The notes beneath the pieces were generated by a model, which saw only the letters and a program-made list of their open reading frames with translations, searched no databases and was not told where the DNA came from. From assembly GCF_000724625.1 (NCBI RefSeq), contig NZ_CP007139.1, positions 1,736,001 to 1,800,000 of the forward strand: a stretch of 64,000 nucleotides of DNA. The letters run 5' to 3'. The DNA comes from Fimbriimonas ginsengisoli Gsoil 348 (GTDB lineage: Bacteria > Armatimonadota > Fimbriimonadia > Fimbriimonadales > Fimbriimonadaceae). Positions 26,330-58,483 of the stretch are shown here, in pieces (position 1 is the first letter of the stretch; the number at the start of each line of letters is the position of its first letter). The translations under genes and the position numbers were made by a program.

Positions 26330-28906
26330 CTAGCGCCCAAACTTCCGTTTCCATTCATCCAGGAGCCGTAGCGCCTCGATCGGCGTGAGCTGATTCACGT
26401 CCAGCTTCTGAAGCGCCTTCATCACCGGCGGCTCCTCGAACTCGAAAAGCGAAAGCTGCAGCCTTTGGGTGGTGGCGGGAATCGCCCGCGGCGCTTCCGA
26501 TTTGTCTTCAAGCTCGGCCAGGATCTCCGCCGACCTCTTGAGTACCGCTGCGGGTACGCCCGCCATGCGGGCCACGTGGATTCCGTAACTTCGGTCCGTT
26601 CCGCCGGGGAGAACCCGGTGGGTCCACACGATGTCGTCGCCGAACTCTTCAACCGCGACCCGGTAGTTCGCCACGGTCGGCATCTGGTCGGCCAACGCGT
26701 TGAGCTGGTGGTAGTGGGTGGCAAAGAGCGTCTTCGCTCCAATATCGACAAGGTGTTCGATCATCGCCCATGCGATGGCGAGACCGTCGTACGTGCTCGT
26801 CCCTCGCCCTACTTCGTCGAGGATCACGAGCGACCGCTCGGTGGCGTGGTTCAGGATGTTGGCCGACTCTACCATCTCCACCATAAAGGTGCTCTGGCCA
26901 AGGGCAAGCTCGTCTTTGGCTCCGATGCGGGCAAAGATGCGGTCGCATAACCCCAACCTACAGCTAGCGGCCGGAACGAACGACCCGATCTGGGCGAGAA
27001 GGACGATGAGGGCGTTCTGGCGAAGGTACGTCGACTTGCCCGCCATGTTCGGACCGGTGAGGATCAAGCACCGGGCATCTTCGTTGGATCGGTTACCCAG
27101 CGCGGTTTCGTTCGGTACGAACCCGTTCGTCGATGCCTCTACCACCGGATGACGACCAGATTCGACCGCCAGAAGATCTTCCTCGACGATCTCGGGCCGA
27201 ACGTAGCCCCGCCTGGCCGCAACCTCGGAGAGGGTAGCCAAAACGTCGATCTCCGCCAATGCGCGGGCGGTTTGCAAAAGCGAGCTAGCGTGCTCCGAAA
27301 CTCGATGGCGAAGCCGGTTGAAGAGGTCCGATTCGAGCGCCACCGCCTTCTCCTCGGCGCCGAGCACCAGAGATTCGTGCTCCTTAAGCTCGGCGGTAAT
27401 GTAACGCTCCGCATTGGCGGTGGTCTGCTTTCGGATGTACTCGGGGGGCACTCGATCGCTGTAAGCCTTCGATAACTCCAAGTAATATCCAAAAACCGAG
27501 TTATAACCCACCTTGAGAGTGTTAAGACCGGTCCTCTCCCGCTCGGATCGCTCCAGACTGGCGATGTACCCCTTCCCGTTTCGAGAGAGATCCCGCAGCT
27601 TGTCCAGCTCCAAGTCGTGCCCCTCGCGGATGACGCCCCCTTCTCGCAGGTTGTGGGGCGGGTCCGGTACCAGCGCCCGATCGAGCACCGCCGCGAGCTC
27701 GTGGTGGTCGGCGATCTGCTCGCGCAACTCCTGAATCCGTCCCAGTCCGACTTTCCGAAGCGGCTCGGCAAGTGCGGGCATTGCGAGAAGGGTGTTCCGG
27801 AGCGCGGCCAAGTCGCGTGGTCCCGCCAGCCCCGCGGCGGCGCGAGAAACGAGACGCTCCAGGTCCGATAACCGCCGGAGGCCGTCTCGTAAATCGCCCC
27901 GCACCATCGCCTGGGTTTGGAATCGCTCGACCGCCTCTTGGCGGCCGCGGATGGCACCGGTGTCCAAGAGAGGCTGCTCGATCCAGCGCCGTAATAGCCG
28001 GGCCCCCATTGCGGTGACCGTCTCGTCCAGAACGCCGAGCAGGGTGAACCGCCGGCCTCCGTCGGCCATATTCTGCGTTAGCTCCAAACTTCGACGCGTC
28101 GCCGGATCGAGGCGCATGAATCCTTCCACCGAATAGGTGGCGAGGGAGTCCACGTGTCCGAGAGCGAGGTGGTTCTTCTCCGCGTACGCGAGGATCATCG
28201 AAGCGGCCACGACCGCGCTTGGCTTATCCTCGCATCCAAATCCGTTCAGGTTTGCCACCCTAAACTGCTCGATAAGCTTTCGGCAAGCTCGATCGAATCC
28301 GAGGGCAGCCTGCTCCGTGACCGACGTCCCCAGCGCTCCCTGCGCGAGCTCGCCGTACGCTTCGGCATTCGGTCCCACCAGCAGCTCCGTCGGCCGTACT
28401 CGCGCCAGCTCTTGTACGAGAAGGTCTTGGGCTGCCTCCCCAAGAACCTCGGTCACGATGAACTCTCCCGTCGATGGATCGAGCAAAGCGAGTCCGGCTC
28501 GGCCGTCCTGCACGCAGATCGCGGCGAGGAAATTGTTCTGCCCCGCGCTGAGCATCGAGTCCTCGACCAAGGTTCCAGGGGTCATGACCCGCGTAACTCC
28601 TCGCTTGATCAGTCCCTTAGCGGTTTTAGGATCTTCGAGCTGGTCGCACAGCGCCACCTTGAGCCCTTTCTGCAGAAGCCGGGCGAGGTACTTCTCAACC
28701 GAGTGGAACGGCACTCCGGCCATCGGGATCCGCCCATTCGCCGCGTCCTCCCGCCCGGTAAGGGTGATCTCCAGCGCCGCCGCCGCGGTCTCGGCGTCCT
28801 CCCCATAGAACTCGTAAAAGTCCCCCACCCGCATCGCCAGCAGCACCCCCGGGTGCTCCGCCTTCGCGGCGAAATACTGCTGAAGCATCGGCGTCCGAAC
28901 CGTCAC
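26330..28906 (-). CDS. mutS: DNA mismatch repair protein MutS
   Basis: An 858-residue MutS. The mismatch-reading N-terminus has RVGDFYEFYGEDA (the Phe-x-Glu site). The ABC ATPase region has Walker A GPNMAGKSTYLRQ and Walker B LVILDEVGRGTSTYDGLAIA, and the C-terminal helix-turn-helix dimerisation region is present. It recognises mismatches in replicated DNA. I start it at GTG 28906, just before TPMLQQYF, where MutS proteins normally begin; the open frame extends 49 codons upstream through repeat-like DNA. No mutL is in the window. Confidence 0.95.
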   Translation of the reverse strand: MTVRTPMLQQYFAAKAEHPGVLLAMRVGDFYEFYGEDAETAAAALEITLTGREDAANGRIPMAGVPFHSVEKYLARLLQKGLKVALCDQLEDPKTAKGLIKRGVTRVMTPGTLVEDSMLSAGQNNFLAAICVQDGRAGLALLDPSTGEFIVTEVLGEAAQDLLVQELARVRPTELLVGPNAEAYGELAQGALGTSVTEQAALGFDRACRKLIEQFRVANLNGFGCEDKPSAVVAASMILAYAEKNHLALGHVDSLATYSVEGFMRLDPATRRSLELTQNMADGGRRFTLLGVLDETVTAMGARLLRRWIEQPLLDTGAIRGRQEAVERFQTQAMVRGDLRDGLRRLSDLERLVSRAAAGLAGPRDLAALRNTLLAMPALAEPLRKVGLGRIQELREQIADHHELAAVLDRALVPDPPHNLREGGVIREGHDLELDKLRDLSRNGKGYIASLERSERERTGLNTLKVGYNSVFGYYLELSKAYSDRVPPEYIRKQTTANAERYITAELKEHESLVLGAEEKAVALESDLFNRLRHRVSEHASSLLQTARALAEIDVLATLSEVAARRGYVRPEIVEEDLLAVESGRHPVVEASTNGFVPNETALGNRSNEDARCLILTGPNMAGKSTYLRQNALIVLLAQIGSFVPAASCRLGLCDRIFARIGAKDELALGQSTFMVEMVESANILNHATERSLVILDEVGRGTSTYDGLAIAWAMIEHLVDIGAKTLFATHYHQLNALADQMPTVANYRVAVEEFGDDIVWTHRVLPGGTDRSYGIHVARMAGVPAAVLKRSAEILAELEDKSEAPRAIPATTQRLQLSLFEFEEPPVMKALQKLDVNQLTPIEALRLLDEWKRKFGR

Positions 28907-29275
28907 CCCTATAGGGTGGCACGTAACCCCCGTCCGGAGCCCCTCTCGCTCCTCGAGATGTTCGTGCCCGAAGAGGGGTTGGGGGTGAGGGAGTCCGGTC
29001 CGGATCATCGGCGAGGGCGCCGACGCTACTACGCTATCAAGAACCCACGTCATCCGCTATCACCGTGCCCACGGACGGGACGGACGGTGGAAAAGATGCC
29101 GGATTTTGCAGATTTTTCTGTCTAACTCCGCGCCTCGATACTTGCACACGCGAAACGAAATAGCCAAGAATGTTCGCTAAAACTAGATCATTTCGGATCG
29201 AAACACACAAATAACCTCTGCGGTCTTCTGCTTGCCAGCGCGAATTTACCGCCGACGGCAAAGAGGAGAACGAAG
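28907..29275. other. Intergenic region between mutS and ku
   Basis: About 370 bases with no gene. Positions 28950-29000 (GAAGAGGGGTTGGGGGTGAG) resemble the purine-rich GGGGGAGGGCAGGGAGGG segments of the repeat cluster at 5930-6160. The remainder is more AT-rich and presumably carries the ku promoter. GAGGAG at 29263-29268 is a strong ribosome binding site for ku, unlike the many leaderless-looking starts elsewhere. Confidence 0.5.
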
Positions 29276-30082
29276 ATGGCGGCAAGGCCGATATGGAGAG
29301 GAGTGGTGAGCTTCGGAATGGTGAGCATTCCCGTGGCGCTTTATCCGGCGGTGCAGGAGCACGATATCCGGTTTCACCAGATTCACAAGAAATGTGGCTC
29401 CCGGATCAAACAGCAGAAGTGGTGCCCGGTCGATGAGGAAGTCGTGTCGGCGGACGAGATCGCCCGCGGCTACGAGATCAGCAAAGGTCGTTACGTGTTG
29501 ATCGACGACGAAGACCTGGAGGCGCTCCCGGTTCCAACCAAGCACACCATCACCGTCGGCTCGTTCGTAGACGCCGGGCAGATCGATCCGATCTACTTCG
29601 ATCAGCCGTACTACGTCGAGCCGGAAGAGACGGGCAAGAAGCCATACGCACTCCTCCTGAAGGCGCTCGAGTCGAAAGGAATGGCTGCCGTCGCCAAGAT
29701 CGCGATGAGGCAAAAGGAAAGCCTCACCCTCCTTCGCGCCGCTGAGGGGCGGCTCGTCTTGGAAACGCTTCACTATCCCGACGAGATCCGGGAGATGGCG
29801 CATGTCGGAGGCAACATACAGGTCGACGAGCGCGAGCTGAAGATGGCCGAGAGCCTGGTCGACCTGCTGACCGAGCCGTTCGAACCCGGAAAATACAAGG
29901 ACGATTACCGCGAAGCGTTAATGGCGCGGATCGAAGCGAAGTCGCACGGAGAAAATATCCGCGAGCAGCCGGAAGCGCCGCAGGCTCAAGTCATCGACCT
30001 GTTCGAGGCGCTGAAGCGAAGCCTCGAGACGGCGAAAGGGCAGACCGCCAAGCCGGCTGAAAAGCGAAGGAAGGCGAGCTAA
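29276..30082 (+). CDS. ku: Ku DNA end-binding protein
   Basis: A 268-residue bacterial Ku. MAARPIWRGVVSFGMVSIPV is the family start, with a core beta-barrel ring (YVLIDDEDLEALPVPTKHTI) and a C-terminal Lys-rich extension (AEKRRKAS) that contacts DNA and LigD. Ku threads onto double-strand break ends and recruits LigD for non-homologous end joining. Its TAA overlaps the ligD ATG in TAATG, so both proteins are co-translated. A GAGGAG ribosome binding site precedes the start. Confidence 0.95.
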   Translation: MAARPIWRGVVSFGMVSIPVALYPAVQEHDIRFHQIHKKCGSRIKQQKWCPVDEEVVSADEIARGYEISKGRYVLIDDEDLEALPVPTKHTITVGSFVDAGQIDPIYFDQPYYVEPEETGKKPYALLLKALESKGMAAVAKIAMRQKESLTLLRAAEGRLVLETLHYPDEIREMAHVGGNIQVDERELKMAESLVDLLTEPFEPGKYKDDYREALMARIEAKSHGENIREQPEAPQAQVIDLFEALKRSLETAKGQTAKPAEKRRKAS

Positions 30083-32688
30083 TGAAGCGGACCTACGCCG
30101 ACAAGCGGAATTTCGCCGTCACCCCCGAACCGACCTTCGCGACGCAAGTCGACGATAAGGGAGGGCCGCTGACGTTCGTGATTCAACGTCATGAGGCATC
30201 GCACCTCCATTTCGACTTTCGACTCGAGTGCGATGGCGCGCTCAAGAGCTGGGCGGTTCCAAAGGGTCCCTCGCTCGACCCGACTGTCAAACGGGCAGCG
30301 ATTATGGTGGAGGACCATCCGCTTGACTATGCCGACTTCGAAGGTCGGATCCCCAAAGGGCAATACGGAGGCGGAGAGGTAATCCTCTGGGACGAGGGGA
30401 CCTACGAACCGGAGGGAGCGACCGGCGACCGGAGGCGGGACGAAGAGCTCGTGAAGCGGGGGCTTTCTGAGGGCAAGCTCTCATTCACTCTCTACGGATC
30501 CCGCCTTCAAGGCGCCTTCACCCTGATCCGAAAAGGGGAATCGGAAAACTGGCTGCTGATCAAGAGAAGGGACGAGTTCGCGAGCACGGAAGACCCGACC
30601 AAGATCGTCTCCTCCGTACGCACGGGCCGAACGGCGGAAGATCTTCGAGCAGGCAAACGCGGCCAACAGATGGTCCGAATCCCCGGCGCGATCCTCGCCC
30701 CGATCCCGCCTCGGTTGGGGGTCATGGTTCCCAAAGAGCTGCCCAAGCCGTTTACCAGCGAGCTTTGGACGTTTGAGCCAAAGCTCGACGGGATCCGGGC
30801 GCTCGCCATCAAAGACGGCCCGCAGGTCCGCATTATCAGCCGAAACGGAAACGAGGTGTCCTCCCGCTTCCCCGGCGTGGTGTCGGACCTGCGGGCCTTG
30901 CCTCATGCCTCCTTTGTGCTGGACGGCGAGTTGGTGCTGTTGGATCAGAACGGGCGGCCGTCGTTCCAGTCGCTCATGGAGGCGTACCACCGAGGGCAAG
31001 CACCAGCCGACGCGCTTCACTATTACGCTTTCGATTTGATCTACCTCGATGGATACGATTTACGGCGGGTCTCTCTCTCCGACCGTAGGGCGCAACTGGA
31101 GCGGGTTCCCTTGACCCGTTCCCTGCGCCTGCTGGAGACCGTGGATACCGACGGTGAGATGCTGTACGACGAGGCGATGCGCCTCGGGTTCGAGGGGATC
31201 GTCGGCAAGCGGCTCGACAGCAAGTACCGCGAGGGCGCCCCGAGCGACGACTGGGTGAAGATCAAGGGATACCACACCGAGGAATTCCTGATCTGTGGCT
31301 TCACCATGGGATTCGGATCCCGCGAGCACACTTTCGGGGCGCTTCTGCTCGGCCGCCGCGACGAGAGTGGAAAGTTACGGTTCTGCGGCAGCGTCGGGGG
31401 TGGACTGTCGGAGGCGCAGCTCATCGAGCTTAAGCGATTGCTAGAACCGCTGAAGGTGAAGAATTCGCCGTTCGACGAGCCGATTTCGACTCGGGGCGTC
31501 CCAACCTTCGTTCGCCCTGAGCTGCTGGCCGAGGTCCGGTTCATGTCCTGGACCAAGGATCGACGCCTTCGCTTCCCAATCTTTAAGCGGCTTCGCCCCG
31601 ATTTACAGCTTGGAACTGCCGAGCCGGCACCCAAGCCGGAGCTGGCGACCACCGGAGCGAGCGAATCGGATGCCGTTCTCGAAGCGCTGCTCGAGCCCGG
31701 GGAAGAGCTGCAACTGACCATCGACGGGAACCCGATCCGGTTCACCAGTCTAAGTAAGGAGCTATGGCCGGGCATTACCAAGCGTGATTTCGTGCGCTAC
31801 CTGGCCAGCGTCTCCGATATCTACTTGGCCCACCTGCGCGACCGTCCGGTCACGTTCGTCCGATATCCGGACGGCATCGGCGGAGAAGGCTTTTTCCAGC
31901 GCCATTGGGAGCACCGCCTGCCGGAGTTCGTGGAGACGGCAAAGATTTTCTCGCAGAACAACGGAAAAGCGCTCGACTTCGTGCTGTGCAACAACCTAGC
32001 CTCGTTACTGTGGTTCGGGCAGGTCGCCGCCATCGAGCTTCATCCGTGGCACTCTCGGGTTACGACATCTCCCGATGCGGTGGGATTGGGCGCGCAGTTC
32101 GACACCCTGGAAAACCTGGAGGAGTCAGTCCTCGAATATCCCGACTACCTGGTCTGCGACCTCGACCCTAACATCCGTTCCGGCCTGGAGAAGGAAGGGG
32201 CCGAGCCTGAGCTGAACGAGGCAGGCTGGCGGCGCACCGTCGAAGTGGCGTTCGGCCTCAAGGAGATGCTCGACTCGCTTCGCCTCAAGTCGTTCGTGAA
32301 GACGACAGGCAAGACCGGACTCCACGTCTACCTCCCGCTGGAGCGCCATTACGACTCCACTCAAGTCCGCGAAGTGGCCCGGACTCTGGGGCAACACCTC
32401 ATGGAACGGATGCCGGGAAAGATCACGATGGAGATTCGGCTGAACAAGCGTCCGAATCTGGTCTTCTTCGACGCCAACATGAACGGCCGAGGAAAGACTC
32501 TAGCCTCCGCCTATTCCCCTCGCCCGGTTCCAGGCGGACGCGTCTCGATGCCGATTGCCTGGGAAATGCTGGACCAAGTCCACCCGGACGAGTTCAACAT
32601 CTTCACGGTTCCGAAGCTATTGGCCACCAATGGCGACGAGTGGCACGGGATATTGAATGCTAGGCAGCTCTTGGCGGTCGGGCCGTAG
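30082..32688 (+). CDS. ligD: Multifunctional DNA ligase D (PE-LIG-POL)
   Basis: An 868-residue enzyme with domains in the order phosphoesterase (about 20-160), ATP-dependent ligase (about 200-510) and primase-polymerase (about 550-850). PE has HEASHLHFDFRLE and VEDHPLDYADFEG. The ligase nucleophile is Lys234 in FEPKLDGIRA. POL carries YPDGIGGEGFFQRHW and DYLVCDLDPN. It processes 3' ends, fills gaps and seals Ku-bound breaks. Its last 72 bases overlap the 3' end of the opposite HD-GYP gene. Confidence 0.95.
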   Translation: MKRTYADKRNFAVTPEPTFATQVDDKGGPLTFVIQRHEASHLHFDFRLECDGALKSWAVPKGPSLDPTVKRAAIMVEDHPLDYADFEGRIPKGQYGGGEVILWDEGTYEPEGATGDRRRDEELVKRGLSEGKLSFTLYGSRLQGAFTLIRKGESENWLLIKRRDEFASTEDPTKIVSSVRTGRTAEDLRAGKRGQQMVRIPGAILAPIPPRLGVMVPKELPKPFTSELWTFEPKLDGIRALAIKDGPQVRIISRNGNEVSSRFPGVVSDLRALPHASFVLDGELVLLDQNGRPSFQSLMEAYHRGQAPADALHYYAFDLIYLDGYDLRRVSLSDRRAQLERVPLTRSLRLLETVDTDGEMLYDEAMRLGFEGIVGKRLDSKYREGAPSDDWVKIKGYHTEEFLICGFTMGFGSREHTFGALLLGRRDESGKLRFCGSVGGGLSEAQLIELKRLLEPLKVKNSPFDEPISTRGVPTFVRPELLAEVRFMSWTKDRRLRFPIFKRLRPDLQLGTAEPAPKPELATTGASESDAVLEALLEPGEELQLTIDGNPIRFTSLSKELWPGITKRDFVRYLASVSDIYLAHLRDRPVTFVRYPDGIGGEGFFQRHWEHRLPEFVETAKIFSQNNGKALDFVLCNNLASLLWFGQVAAIELHPWHSRVTTSPDAVGLGAQFDTLENLEESVLEYPDYLVCDLDPNIRSGLEKEGAEPELNEAGWRRTVEVAFGLKEMLDSLRLKSFVKTTGKTGLHVYLPLERHYDSTQVREVARTLGQHLMERMPGKITMEIRLNKRPNLVFFDANMNGRGKTLASAYSPRPVPGGRVSMPIAWEMLDQVHPDEFNIFTVPKLLATNGDEWHGILNARQLLAVGP

Positions 32689-54624: not shown

Positions 54625-55203
54625 TCAAATCTCTTCCAATGTCTTCCCGGTCTTGAACGACCTGTCCAGTACCAGGACTCGAGAGGTTGAGGCGTGTTCA
54701 TCGTCCATTTTTTGGAAATCCCAGTAGTCGCCCTGCCCCCGTTGAAGTTGCCAGCCACCCTTGAGATGCCTTCCGGTTAGGGTGAACTGGAAATCGCCCC
54801 GGCTGATCTGGTCGAGTGTCTCCAACTCATAGGTCGAGTACGTTCGGAGGATTGGGGCGAAGCCACCAAGGTCCACCGGCATCGTGGGACCCGCTCCGGG
54901 CTGACCCTCCGGAATTTTGCGCTCGGAGTCGATATATCGTGGGTCGTGATCACCCATCAGCTTGGCGCGCACCGGCTTCGCCGGATCGAGGGAAGGGTCG
55001 CCGAGCAAAACGAGGGAGAAAAGCGTCTGGAGAACCCTAAGCCTCAGATCGAAGTGACGAGTCGTGGCGTGGTGGAGCCGGAGGGCAAAGCTCATGGGAA
55101 GCTGGCATTCGGGAAGCAGGCTGAGCTGGACCGGCACATTAAAGCGAATCCTCCCTCGCGGCTGCGAAAAGAGCGCCGAAGCGATAAACGGCTCGAATTT
55201 CAC
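54625..55203 (-). CDS. Stand-alone LigD-type 3'-phosphoesterase-like protein
   Basis: A 192-residue protein resembling the PE domain of LigD. FALRLHHATTRHFDLRL aligns with the LigD motif HEASHLHFDFRL. The residues His44, His50, Asp52, Arg54, His86 and Tyr90 have the same spacing as the catalytic set described for Pseudomonas LigD (His42, His48, Asp50, Arg52, His84, Tyr88). The middle GDPSLDPAK, IPEGQPGAG and FQFTLTGRHLKGGWQL also align. The VPKGPS and VWDxG segments have changed. Start GTG 55203 is supported by TATAAT six bases upstream. It is convergent with pabB. Confidence 0.75.
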   Translation of the reverse strand: MKFEPFIASALFSQPRGRIRFNVPVQLSLLPECQLPMSFALRLHHATTRHFDLRLRVLQTLFSLVLLGDPSLDPAKPVRAKLMGDHDPRYIDSERKIPEGQPGAGPTMPVDLGGFAPILRTYSTYELETLDQISRGDFQFTLTGRHLKGGWQLQRGQGDYWDFQKMDDEHASTSRVLVLDRSFKTGKTLEEI

Positions 55204-55356
55204 GACCACATTATAGTAGACATTTGTGCGCTTGGATTGACCATTCTTTTGCGTCGCGGGTTTCAGCGATGCAGAAGCCCCGCACTGTGGGTGGGGCTAC
55301 AAATCGTCAAATAGTAGGTCAGGCCGCGCGCGGGAGGGAGGCTACATAGGCGGTCG

Positions 55357-57114: not shown

Positions 57115-57624
57115 ATGGCGACCGGAACGTCTTCCATTGGGGTGATCGGCAAATGGCTGATCGTGCCGGTCCTAGTCGCTGCCCTCGGCTATTTTGTAAT
57201 TGCGCCGGCGATCCGGCATCAGCCTCCTCCAGCTACCGCTGCCCCAACTTCGATTCCCAATGCCGCGGAAACCTCGGGCCACGCGATCGCTAACCCCGAG
57301 GTCACCATCGAGCGAGGTCCTGCGGTGGCCACGCGAGGTCCGGAAGTCAGCATTTCCCAGACTCCTTACCGCCCCCACCATCACAAGAGAAAGAAGAAGC
57401 CCGATCCAAAACCGGCAGAGCCCCCAAAAACCGAAGTCCCCGCACCACCAGCCACCGAACCACCCGTCGACGGCGGCGGAAGCGGCGGCGCGGCAACGAC
57501 CGGGGGAGACGGGACGACCGGGACCGACGCCGGCGCCACGACGGGCGGAGCTACCGGTGGAGACACCGCCGGTTCGACTACCGGAGCAACCGGGGGAACA
57601 GACACGACCGGATTGAAGATATAG
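57115..57624 (+). CDS. Membrane-anchored low-complexity protein
   Basis: A 169-residue protein with one N-terminal membrane helix (LIVPVLVAALGYFVIAPAI). A Pro/Ala/Thr linker, a basic patch (PHHHKRKKKPDPKP), and a Gly/Thr tail (GDGTTGTDAGATTGGATGG) follow. The tail is likely disordered and outside the membrane. No function is recognisable. ATG 57115 fits TAAAAT seven bases upstream better than ATG 57106. The radical SAM gene follows seven bases later. Confidence 0.65.
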   Translation: MATGTSSIGVIGKWLIVPVLVAALGYFVIAPAIRHQPPPATAAPTSIPNAAETSGHAIANPEVTIERGPAVATRGPEVSISQTPYRPHHHKRKKKPDPKPAEPPKTEVPAPPATEPPVDGGGSGGAATTGGDGTTGTDAGATTGGATGGDTAGSTTGATGGTDTTGLKI

Positions 57625-57631
57625 TAGACGT

Positions 57632-58483
57632 ATGTCTGCAGAATCTCAGGCCTCGTTGTTCGAGCCGGAACCCGTCACCCTGCCGGCATCCGTCGGACCG
57701 GCGGCCGTGCGGGCCATCGAAACAACCCACCTGCTAACTCCCGGCAAAGGAAGAATTTCCGACTACGACTTCACCCTTAATCCCTATCGAGGCTGCTCGT
57801 TCGGGTGCTCGTACTGTTTCGCCGCGTTCTTCGTGGCGGACGATCTTCAGCGAGCCGAGTGGGGCAAGTGGGTGGAGGTGAAGGTGCGAGCCGCCGAAGC
57901 GCTGCGGCATCGGAATCTGCGCGGCAAGCGGATCTTCATGAGCTCCGCGACCGACCCGTACCAACCGCTCGAAGCCAAGCTCGAACTGACCCGCGAGATC
58001 GTGGCGATATTGGGCGACGCTCAAGCGCGTTTAGTGGTTCAAACGCGAAGCCCGCTCGCCGCGCGCGACGTCGACCTGTTCAAGAGATTTCAGTTTCTCC
58101 GCGTGAATATGTCGGTAACGACCGACGACGATTCGGTGCGCAAGCAGTTCGAGCCGGGCTGCGCCAGCATCGAGAGGAGGTTGGAGGCGGTTGAGCGGAT
58201 CAAAGCGGCGGGGGTCCGCGTGGCGGTGTGCGTCTGCCCGATGCTTCCAATGCACGATCCGGAAGCGTTCGGCAAGCGGCTGACCCGAATGGGAGTCGAT
58301 GCCGTAACGTCCGGCTACTTCCATTCGGGGGACCGCGCCTTCGCGGCCGGCACTCGCGACCGAGCGCGGGAACTTGCCGACGAGCAAGGGTGGACGTACG
58401 AGGCGTACAGCCGCTGCCGCGCCGCGTTGCGCCACGGTTGCGAGGCTTACGGCTCTTCGGGAGCCGCATTCGGCCCCGTCTGA
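57632..58483 (+). CDS. SPL-family radical SAM protein
   Basis: A 283-residue protein. The [4Fe-4S] motif is C55-x3-C59-x2-C62 in NPYRGCSFGCSYCFA. FMSSATDPYQPLEAKLELTR and VVQTRSPLAARDVDLF are characteristic of spore-photoproduct-lyase-like (Rv2578c-type) proteins, and NMSVTTDDDSVRKQFEPG follows. The true substrate of this non-sporulation branch is unknown. The start has TATAGT six bases upstream, although the previous gene ends only seven bases away, so it may have its own promoter inside that gene's end. Confidence 0.88.
   Translation: MSAESQASLFEPEPVTLPASVGPAAVRAIETTHLLTPGKGRISDYDFTLNPYRGCSFGCSYCFAAFFVADDLQRAEWGKWVEVKVRAAEALRHRNLRGKRIFMSSATDPYQPLEAKLELTREIVAILGDAQARLVVQTRSPLAARDVDLFKRFQFLRVNMSVTTDDDSVRKQFEPGCASIERRLEAVERIKAAGVRVAVCVCPMLPMHDPEAFGKRLTRMGVDAVTSGYFHSGDRAFAAGTRDRARELADEQGWTYEAYSRCRAALRHGCEAYGSSGAAFGPV

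Follow-up and report, generated by a model that had tools for sequence, protein, structure and literature searches.

LigD-type phosphoesterases (PEs) are usually discussed as enzymes of non-homologous end joining (NHEJ). In the PE domain of Pseudomonas aeruginosa LigD (structures 3N9B and 2LJ6; families PF13298 and TIGR02777), mutants of His42, His48, Asp50, His84 or Tyr88 are inactive and Gln40Ala reduces the phosphodiesterase activity; Arg14, Arg15 (as printed), Glu21 and Glu82 are required for the 3′-phosphatase step but not for removal of the 3′-ribonucleoside (review PMC8656161). Small stand-alone PEs of the same fold are represented in archaea (Methanocella paludicola 5DMP; Ca. Korarchaeum, Methanosarcina barkeri, 3P43, 3P4H), and 5DMP has been described as an archaeal NHEJ phosphoesterase. 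Another system that bears on the present locus is the imuA-imuB-dnaE2 cassette; imuB-dnaE2 belongs, like recA, ruvB and splB, to the standard SOS genes (PMC8565304). Our search of the literature found no PE member of this cassette, and no LexA motif for Armatimonadota.

Here we describe a stand-alone PE gene of Fimbriimonas ginsengisoli Gsoil 348 whose product, with a probability that we put at about 0.6, would be an SOS-induced, clamp-tethered 3′-end processor of the LigD family acting outside NHEJ. This reading comes from comparative sequence analysis, in which an upstream box, linkage to imuB-dnaE2 and a clamp-type peptide say more about the role of the PE than its active site does.

A stand-alone gene of the LigD phosphoesterase family

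The gene lies on the minus strand at positions 54625–55209 of the window, that is, of the whole 64-kb stretch of DNA analysed. Translation from the GTG at 55209 gives a protein of 194 aa; the sequence-only reading that preceded this work had used the alternative GTG at 55203 (192 aa). As that reading had stated, the gene stands apart from the ku-ligD operon, which occupies 29276–32688 on the plus strand (ku, 29276–30082; ligD, with a canonical PE domain, 30082–32688) and is itself divergent from the adjacent mutS (26330–29053, minus strand). The window PE is a true member of PF13298, the LigD 3′-phosphoesterase superfamily. The LigD_N profile matches residues 46–157 (54739–55074, minus strand) with 81 bits (E = 8e-23), which is 50 bits clear of the gathering cut-off of 31.1 and far beyond chance, so that the earlier idea of a distinct family was not borne out. 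With the NCBIfam equivalog model TIGR02777 (LigD_PE_dom), the protein scores only 68.7 bits against a cut-off of 144, and it is therefore a diverged member. The nearest solved structures by phmmer are 5DMP (5e-13) and 3N9B (8e-12). In the Fimbriimonas genome (5.23 Mb, one contig) PF13298 matches two proteins, the window PE and the LigD of the same window.

An AlphaFold2 model of the window PE (pLDDT 84, pTM 0.78; residues 1–24 of low confidence) has the β-barrel fold of the PEs. It superposes on the P. aeruginosa LigD domain 3N9B_B with Z 23.3 and 1.7 Å over 147 residues, and on 5DMP with Z 22.4 over 155 residues, unrelated folds dropping to Z 4 in the same comparison. The input alignment consisted mostly of canonical PEs, which favours a PE fold; the PF13298 match is independent of the model. 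Profile search and superposition were both checks that the sequence-only reading had proposed, and both came out in favour of the LigD PE family.

All six catalytic residues are present and align one-to-one with those of P. aeruginosa LigD at a constant offset of 4, in the spacing originally noticed in the sequence. That is, His46-x5-His52-x-Asp54-x-Arg56 (55042–55074, minus strand) corresponds to His42, His48, Asp50 and Arg52, and 32 residues on, His88-x3-Tyr92 (54934–54948, minus strand) corresponds to His84 and Tyr88. The loss of the PE hallmarks VPKGPS and VWDxG had also been read correctly, the window PE having VLLGDPS and PVDLG. Unlike the LigD domain, with which it has the fold and the catalytic set in common, the window PE is a separate protein without the N-terminal KRDF..T.EP motif, Glu82, Gln40 and Lys66, and it has an SOS-type promoter and a clamp-type peptide.

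Distribution of the clade and its relation to end joining

PF13298 matches were found in 65 of 291 genomes of the phylum Armatimonadota, among which low-scoring stand-alone PEs (82–97 bits) were confined to the window's own family. The clade of the window PE occurs in 8 of the 85 family genomes, namely G000 (the genome of the window), G074 (Armatimonadetes bacterium 55-13), G083, G084, G121, G153, G154 and G157. Maximum-likelihood analysis of 53 PE domains places the eight proteins together on one side of a 99/94 branch (99% of bootstrap trees), which divides them from the LigD PEs and from the other stand-alone PEs; the branching order inside the clade is unsure because of long branches (G000 with G157). 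This tree rejects a recent origin of the window PE by duplication from the local LigD. Likewise, the earlier view of the protein as a diverged paralogue of that LigD did not hold, since the clade is common to seven other genomes and lies on the far side of the 99/94 branch.

Ku and LigD are both absent from six of the eight clade genomes, and both are present in G000 and G074 only. Occurrence together with Ku and LigD, as expected of an NHEJ component, is thus not a property of the clade, which indicates that it is not a part of NHEJ and that the PE needs neither protein. The window PE might still be an accessory or spare NHEJ enzyme, having diverged from the local LigD as its paralogue and healing ends on behalf of Ku and LigD, given that it has the family and fold of the LigD PE and that its genome and G074 do encode both partners. 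We consider this improbable: the phyletic pattern rejects it, a well-supported branch separates the clade from every LigD PE, and the SOS-type box described below stands before all eight clade PEs and before neither ku nor ligD. The general lack of Ku and LigD, together with this box, also sets the clade apart from the archaeal NHEJ phosphoesterase 5DMP.

The clade is fast-diverging and the window PE is without a close relative. Only one pair of members is close, G153/G154; its dN/dS of 0.038 implies strong purifying selection on the PE gene and, for this pair, rejects a decaying gene. A scan of a wider collection of genome contigs with the window PE alone gave no match. With an alignment of three clade members as query, one of the three (L195, i.e. 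G074) was recovered along with 79 others, the 77 of these that were read out all carrying canonical PE signatures. Phage records held no match, and plasmid matches were all below 60% identity. One transposase-bearing contig of a Mu-like phage from IMG/VR (L194:3891-5522) encodes a canonical stand-alone PE (145 bits) beside an S24-type repressor, an arrangement that could possibly represent a second route of PE genes into damage control.

An SOS-type box before the phosphoesterase genes

A box model was built from 28 imuB-dnaE2 upstream regions alone, so that the PE, recA, lexA and ruvB regions are independent of it. Its consensus is a symmetric 20-bp palindrome, TAGTAGACATATGTCTACTA, and the hexamer GTAGAC is found upstream of imuB in 27 of the 28 genomes. 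The best site of the 64-kb window, TAGTAGACATTTGTGCGCTT (plus strand, 55214–55233; 21.0 bits), lies 5 bp upstream of the GTG at 55209. A box precedes the PE gene in all eight clade genomes, at 12.1–25.5 bits and no more than about 60 bp from the start (shuffle p ≤ 0.006), and each is the top site of its 6–11 kb locus, except in G083, where it is second only to the imuB box. The same box stands before imuB-dnaE2 in nearly all of the family genomes that were tested, before recA in 11 of 13 genomes (p < 0.03 against a genomic null of 1033 segments which held a few true boxes, making the p-values conservative), before ruvB of the window genome (12.7 bits) and, as a clear copy, before lexA in 3 of 14 genomes, among them the window genome (12.5 bits). 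The window PE gene therefore carries the box common to recA, lexA, ruvB and imuB. No site of at least 12 bits was found upstream in 21 ku/ligD loci; in the window itself, ku has no box upstream and ligD none above 7.5 bits.

The sequence-only reading had given the gene a promoter of its own, with TATAAT six bases before the GTG at 55203. The hexamer is indeed there and the promoter is the gene's own. An ordinary sigma-70 reading of the TATAAT is not supported, no −35 element having been found, and the TATAAT abuts or overlaps the edge of the palindrome. It could be argued that the box is an element of promoters in general, or is bound by some regulator other than LexA, and that its link to SOS is unspecific, the more so since it is AT-rich, overlaps a −10-like sequence and has a clear copy before lexA in so few genomes. 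This is very unlikely in our view, because the sites are rare (none of at least 20 bits in a 400-kb sample of the window genome), are missing before ku and ligD, and precede recA, ruvB, imuB-dnaE2 and an SPL-like gene, a classic SOS set (PMC8565304). Since these genes share the box and a canonical LexA is encoded in 14 of the 14 genomes tested, the box most probably represents the lineage's own LexA box, to which LexA would bind, and we infer that the PE gene is under LexA control.

A second SOS-type box of the window (57622–57641; 17.5 bits) contains the ATG of a radical SAM, spore-photoproduct-lyase (SPL)-like gene (57632–58483, plus strand). In other bacteria SplB counts among the SOS genes (PMC8565304), and the finding of the same promoter type before the SPL-like gene is independent support for the predicted regulon. 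In many genomes the start codon of imuB is likewise predicted to lie inside the box (e.g. L098:1486-1510), which suggests leaderless SOS transcripts. Further strong boxes of G000 were observed before a 97-aa protein resembling a sigma-factor/helix-turn-helix fragment (24.8 bits; L164:1499-1802) and upstream of a patatin-like protein (23.2 bits; L165:1501-1520), both of which are possible additional SOS genes.

Clamp-type peptide, mutasome linkage and proposed role

Peptides of the QL[SD]LF type are the usual docking motif for the β sliding clamp, and QLSLF at the tail of MutS is a standard clamp peptide. The window PE has a putative peptide of this kind, QLSLL (residues 28–32; 55114–55128, minus strand), 18 residues ahead of the first catalytic His; in this region, which precedes the PE domain, the alignment consensus is PxQxxL. 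Six of the eight clade members have such a peptide (QLSLL in the window, QYSLL, QDELF, QYSFL, and QPPLW twice), always at a distance of exactly 18 residues from that His, against 0.6 of 8 expected from shuffles; it was not found in G083 and G157. At that position Q..L[FLWM] is absent from all 77 other PEs compared. In the six members the peptide occupies the place of the N-terminal motif tied to the phosphatase activity of the LigD PE. Among the ORFs of more than 200 aa in the window there are three instances of Q.[SD]L[FL], in the MutS tail (QLSLF), in the N-terminal part of the SPL-like protein (QASLF) and in the window PE. Comparable peptides are present at the expected place in the ImuBs of the family (e.g. 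QSDLF, QNGLF, QKALF and QESFL), and mycobacterial ImuB uses QLPLWG as its clamp peptide (PMC10421592). The conserved place of the peptide in most of the clade suggests that the window PE may dock on the clamp via QLSLL.

The clade is linked to the mutasome genes in two of its eight genomes. In G074 the PE gene is the first of an operon, overlapping (ATGA) a Y-family gene that in turn overlaps a DnaE-type polymerase gene, and the sole strong box of the operon stands before the PE. In G083 the PE is divergent from imuB-dnaE2, with a separate box for each. Pfam and NCBIfam identify the neighbour pair as IMS/DNA polymerase IV-like and DNA polymerase III alpha/error-prone polymerase, and from the gene order we take it to be imuB-dnaE2. 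Compared with the known imuA-imuB-dnaE2 cassette, the box is the same and the PE, adjacent or co-operonic, occupies the position of an accessory gene. A Y-family protein (ImuB) is encoded in 78 of the 85 family genomes; a search of the clade genomes for imuB gave no match in G084 and G153 and only a broken fragment in G121, and in G000 imuB-dnaE2 lies away from the PE, at about 1.05 Mb. In other genomes various genes take the site before imuB, in several cases that of methylpurine-DNA glycosylase. This glycosylase (Pfam-confirmed in L125, assigned by similarity in L095, L096, L098 and L109) is divergent from imuB-dnaE2 in all five of these loci, the slot held by the PE in G083. In G121 (L056:4545-5879) the PE is divergent from rnhB, encoding RNase HII, another ribonucleotide-removal enzyme; this neighbourhood may be due to chance, as the rnhB-yraN order is common.

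The active site varies across the clade. The Mn ligands His42, His48 and Asp50, as well as Arg52 and His84 (P. aeruginosa numbering), are invariant in all eight members. At position 88, Tyr is found in four members, the window PE included, Cys in three and Leu in one; Gln40 is gone from all eight, Lys66 is lost in nearly all, Glu82 is kept by one member only and Ser61 is replaced by Asp in three. In a comparison set of 40 other PEs, Tyr88 and Ser61 are kept in 40 of 40. The N-terminal motif bearing Arg14/15 and Glu21 is missing from the clade, including the window PE. With the catalytic set kept and the Glu82, Arg14/15 and Glu21 residues missing, the window PE is predicted to be active, perhaps with a bias to nucleoside removal, and a 3′-end-healing activity is plausible; other clade members may be altered or inactive. 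The changes could also be taken to mean that the clade consists of SOS-induced pseudoenzymes, in which the PE fold survives without catalysis and serves the mutasome as a module that binds DNA ends or the clamp, perhaps in place of ImuA. Besides the loss of Tyr88 in half of the members and of Gln40, Lys66 and Glu82, this would fit the leading position of the PE in the G074 operon with imuB-dnaE2 and the lack of an ImuA-like gene beside imuB in the loci inspected by eye. We regard it as rather unlikely, since the two His that bind metal have, together with the Asp, Arg52 and His84, stayed invariant despite strong divergence, and since the window PE keeps Tyr88.

The preferred reading, a clamp-tethered 3′-end processor of the SOS response, supposes that a LigD-family 3′-phosphoesterase left end joining and joined that response. 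The LexA-type box covering the PE promoter would let DNA damage induce the PE together with recA, ruvB and the imuB-dnaE2 mutasome; QLSLL, ahead of the domain, would dock the protein on the β clamp; and the Mn-type site (His46, His52 and Asp54 with Arg56, His88 and Tyr92) would remove unusable 3′ ends there, for instance ribonucleosides at the terminus or blocked ends, and so clear the way for translesion synthesis or gap filling. In short, we infer that the PE processes 3′ ends in damage-tolerant synthesis. Against this reading count the loss of Tyr88 in four of the eight members, that of Gln40 in all and of Glu82 and Lys66 in nearly all, the adjacency to the mutasome in only two, the failure of the imuB search to yield an intact gene in G084, G121 and G153, the missing peptide in two members, the rarity of a clear lexA box (3 of 14 genomes) and the small number of genomes. 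A more specific form, possible but offered tentatively, is that the PE acts as an extrinsic editor for ImuB-DnaE2, tethered to the clamp and induced by SOS. On translesion primers it would clear a blocked end or a ribonucleoside from the 3′ terminus, and the loss of Tyr88 in part of the clade would mark a shift in chemistry.

If the SOS-processor reading is true, the PE fold would also serve replication-coupled damage tolerance, and DnaE2 mutasomes would gain a candidate 3′-end processing factor. The analysis also provides a predicted LexA box, TAGTAGACATATGTCTACTA, for a lineage of the Armatimonadota.
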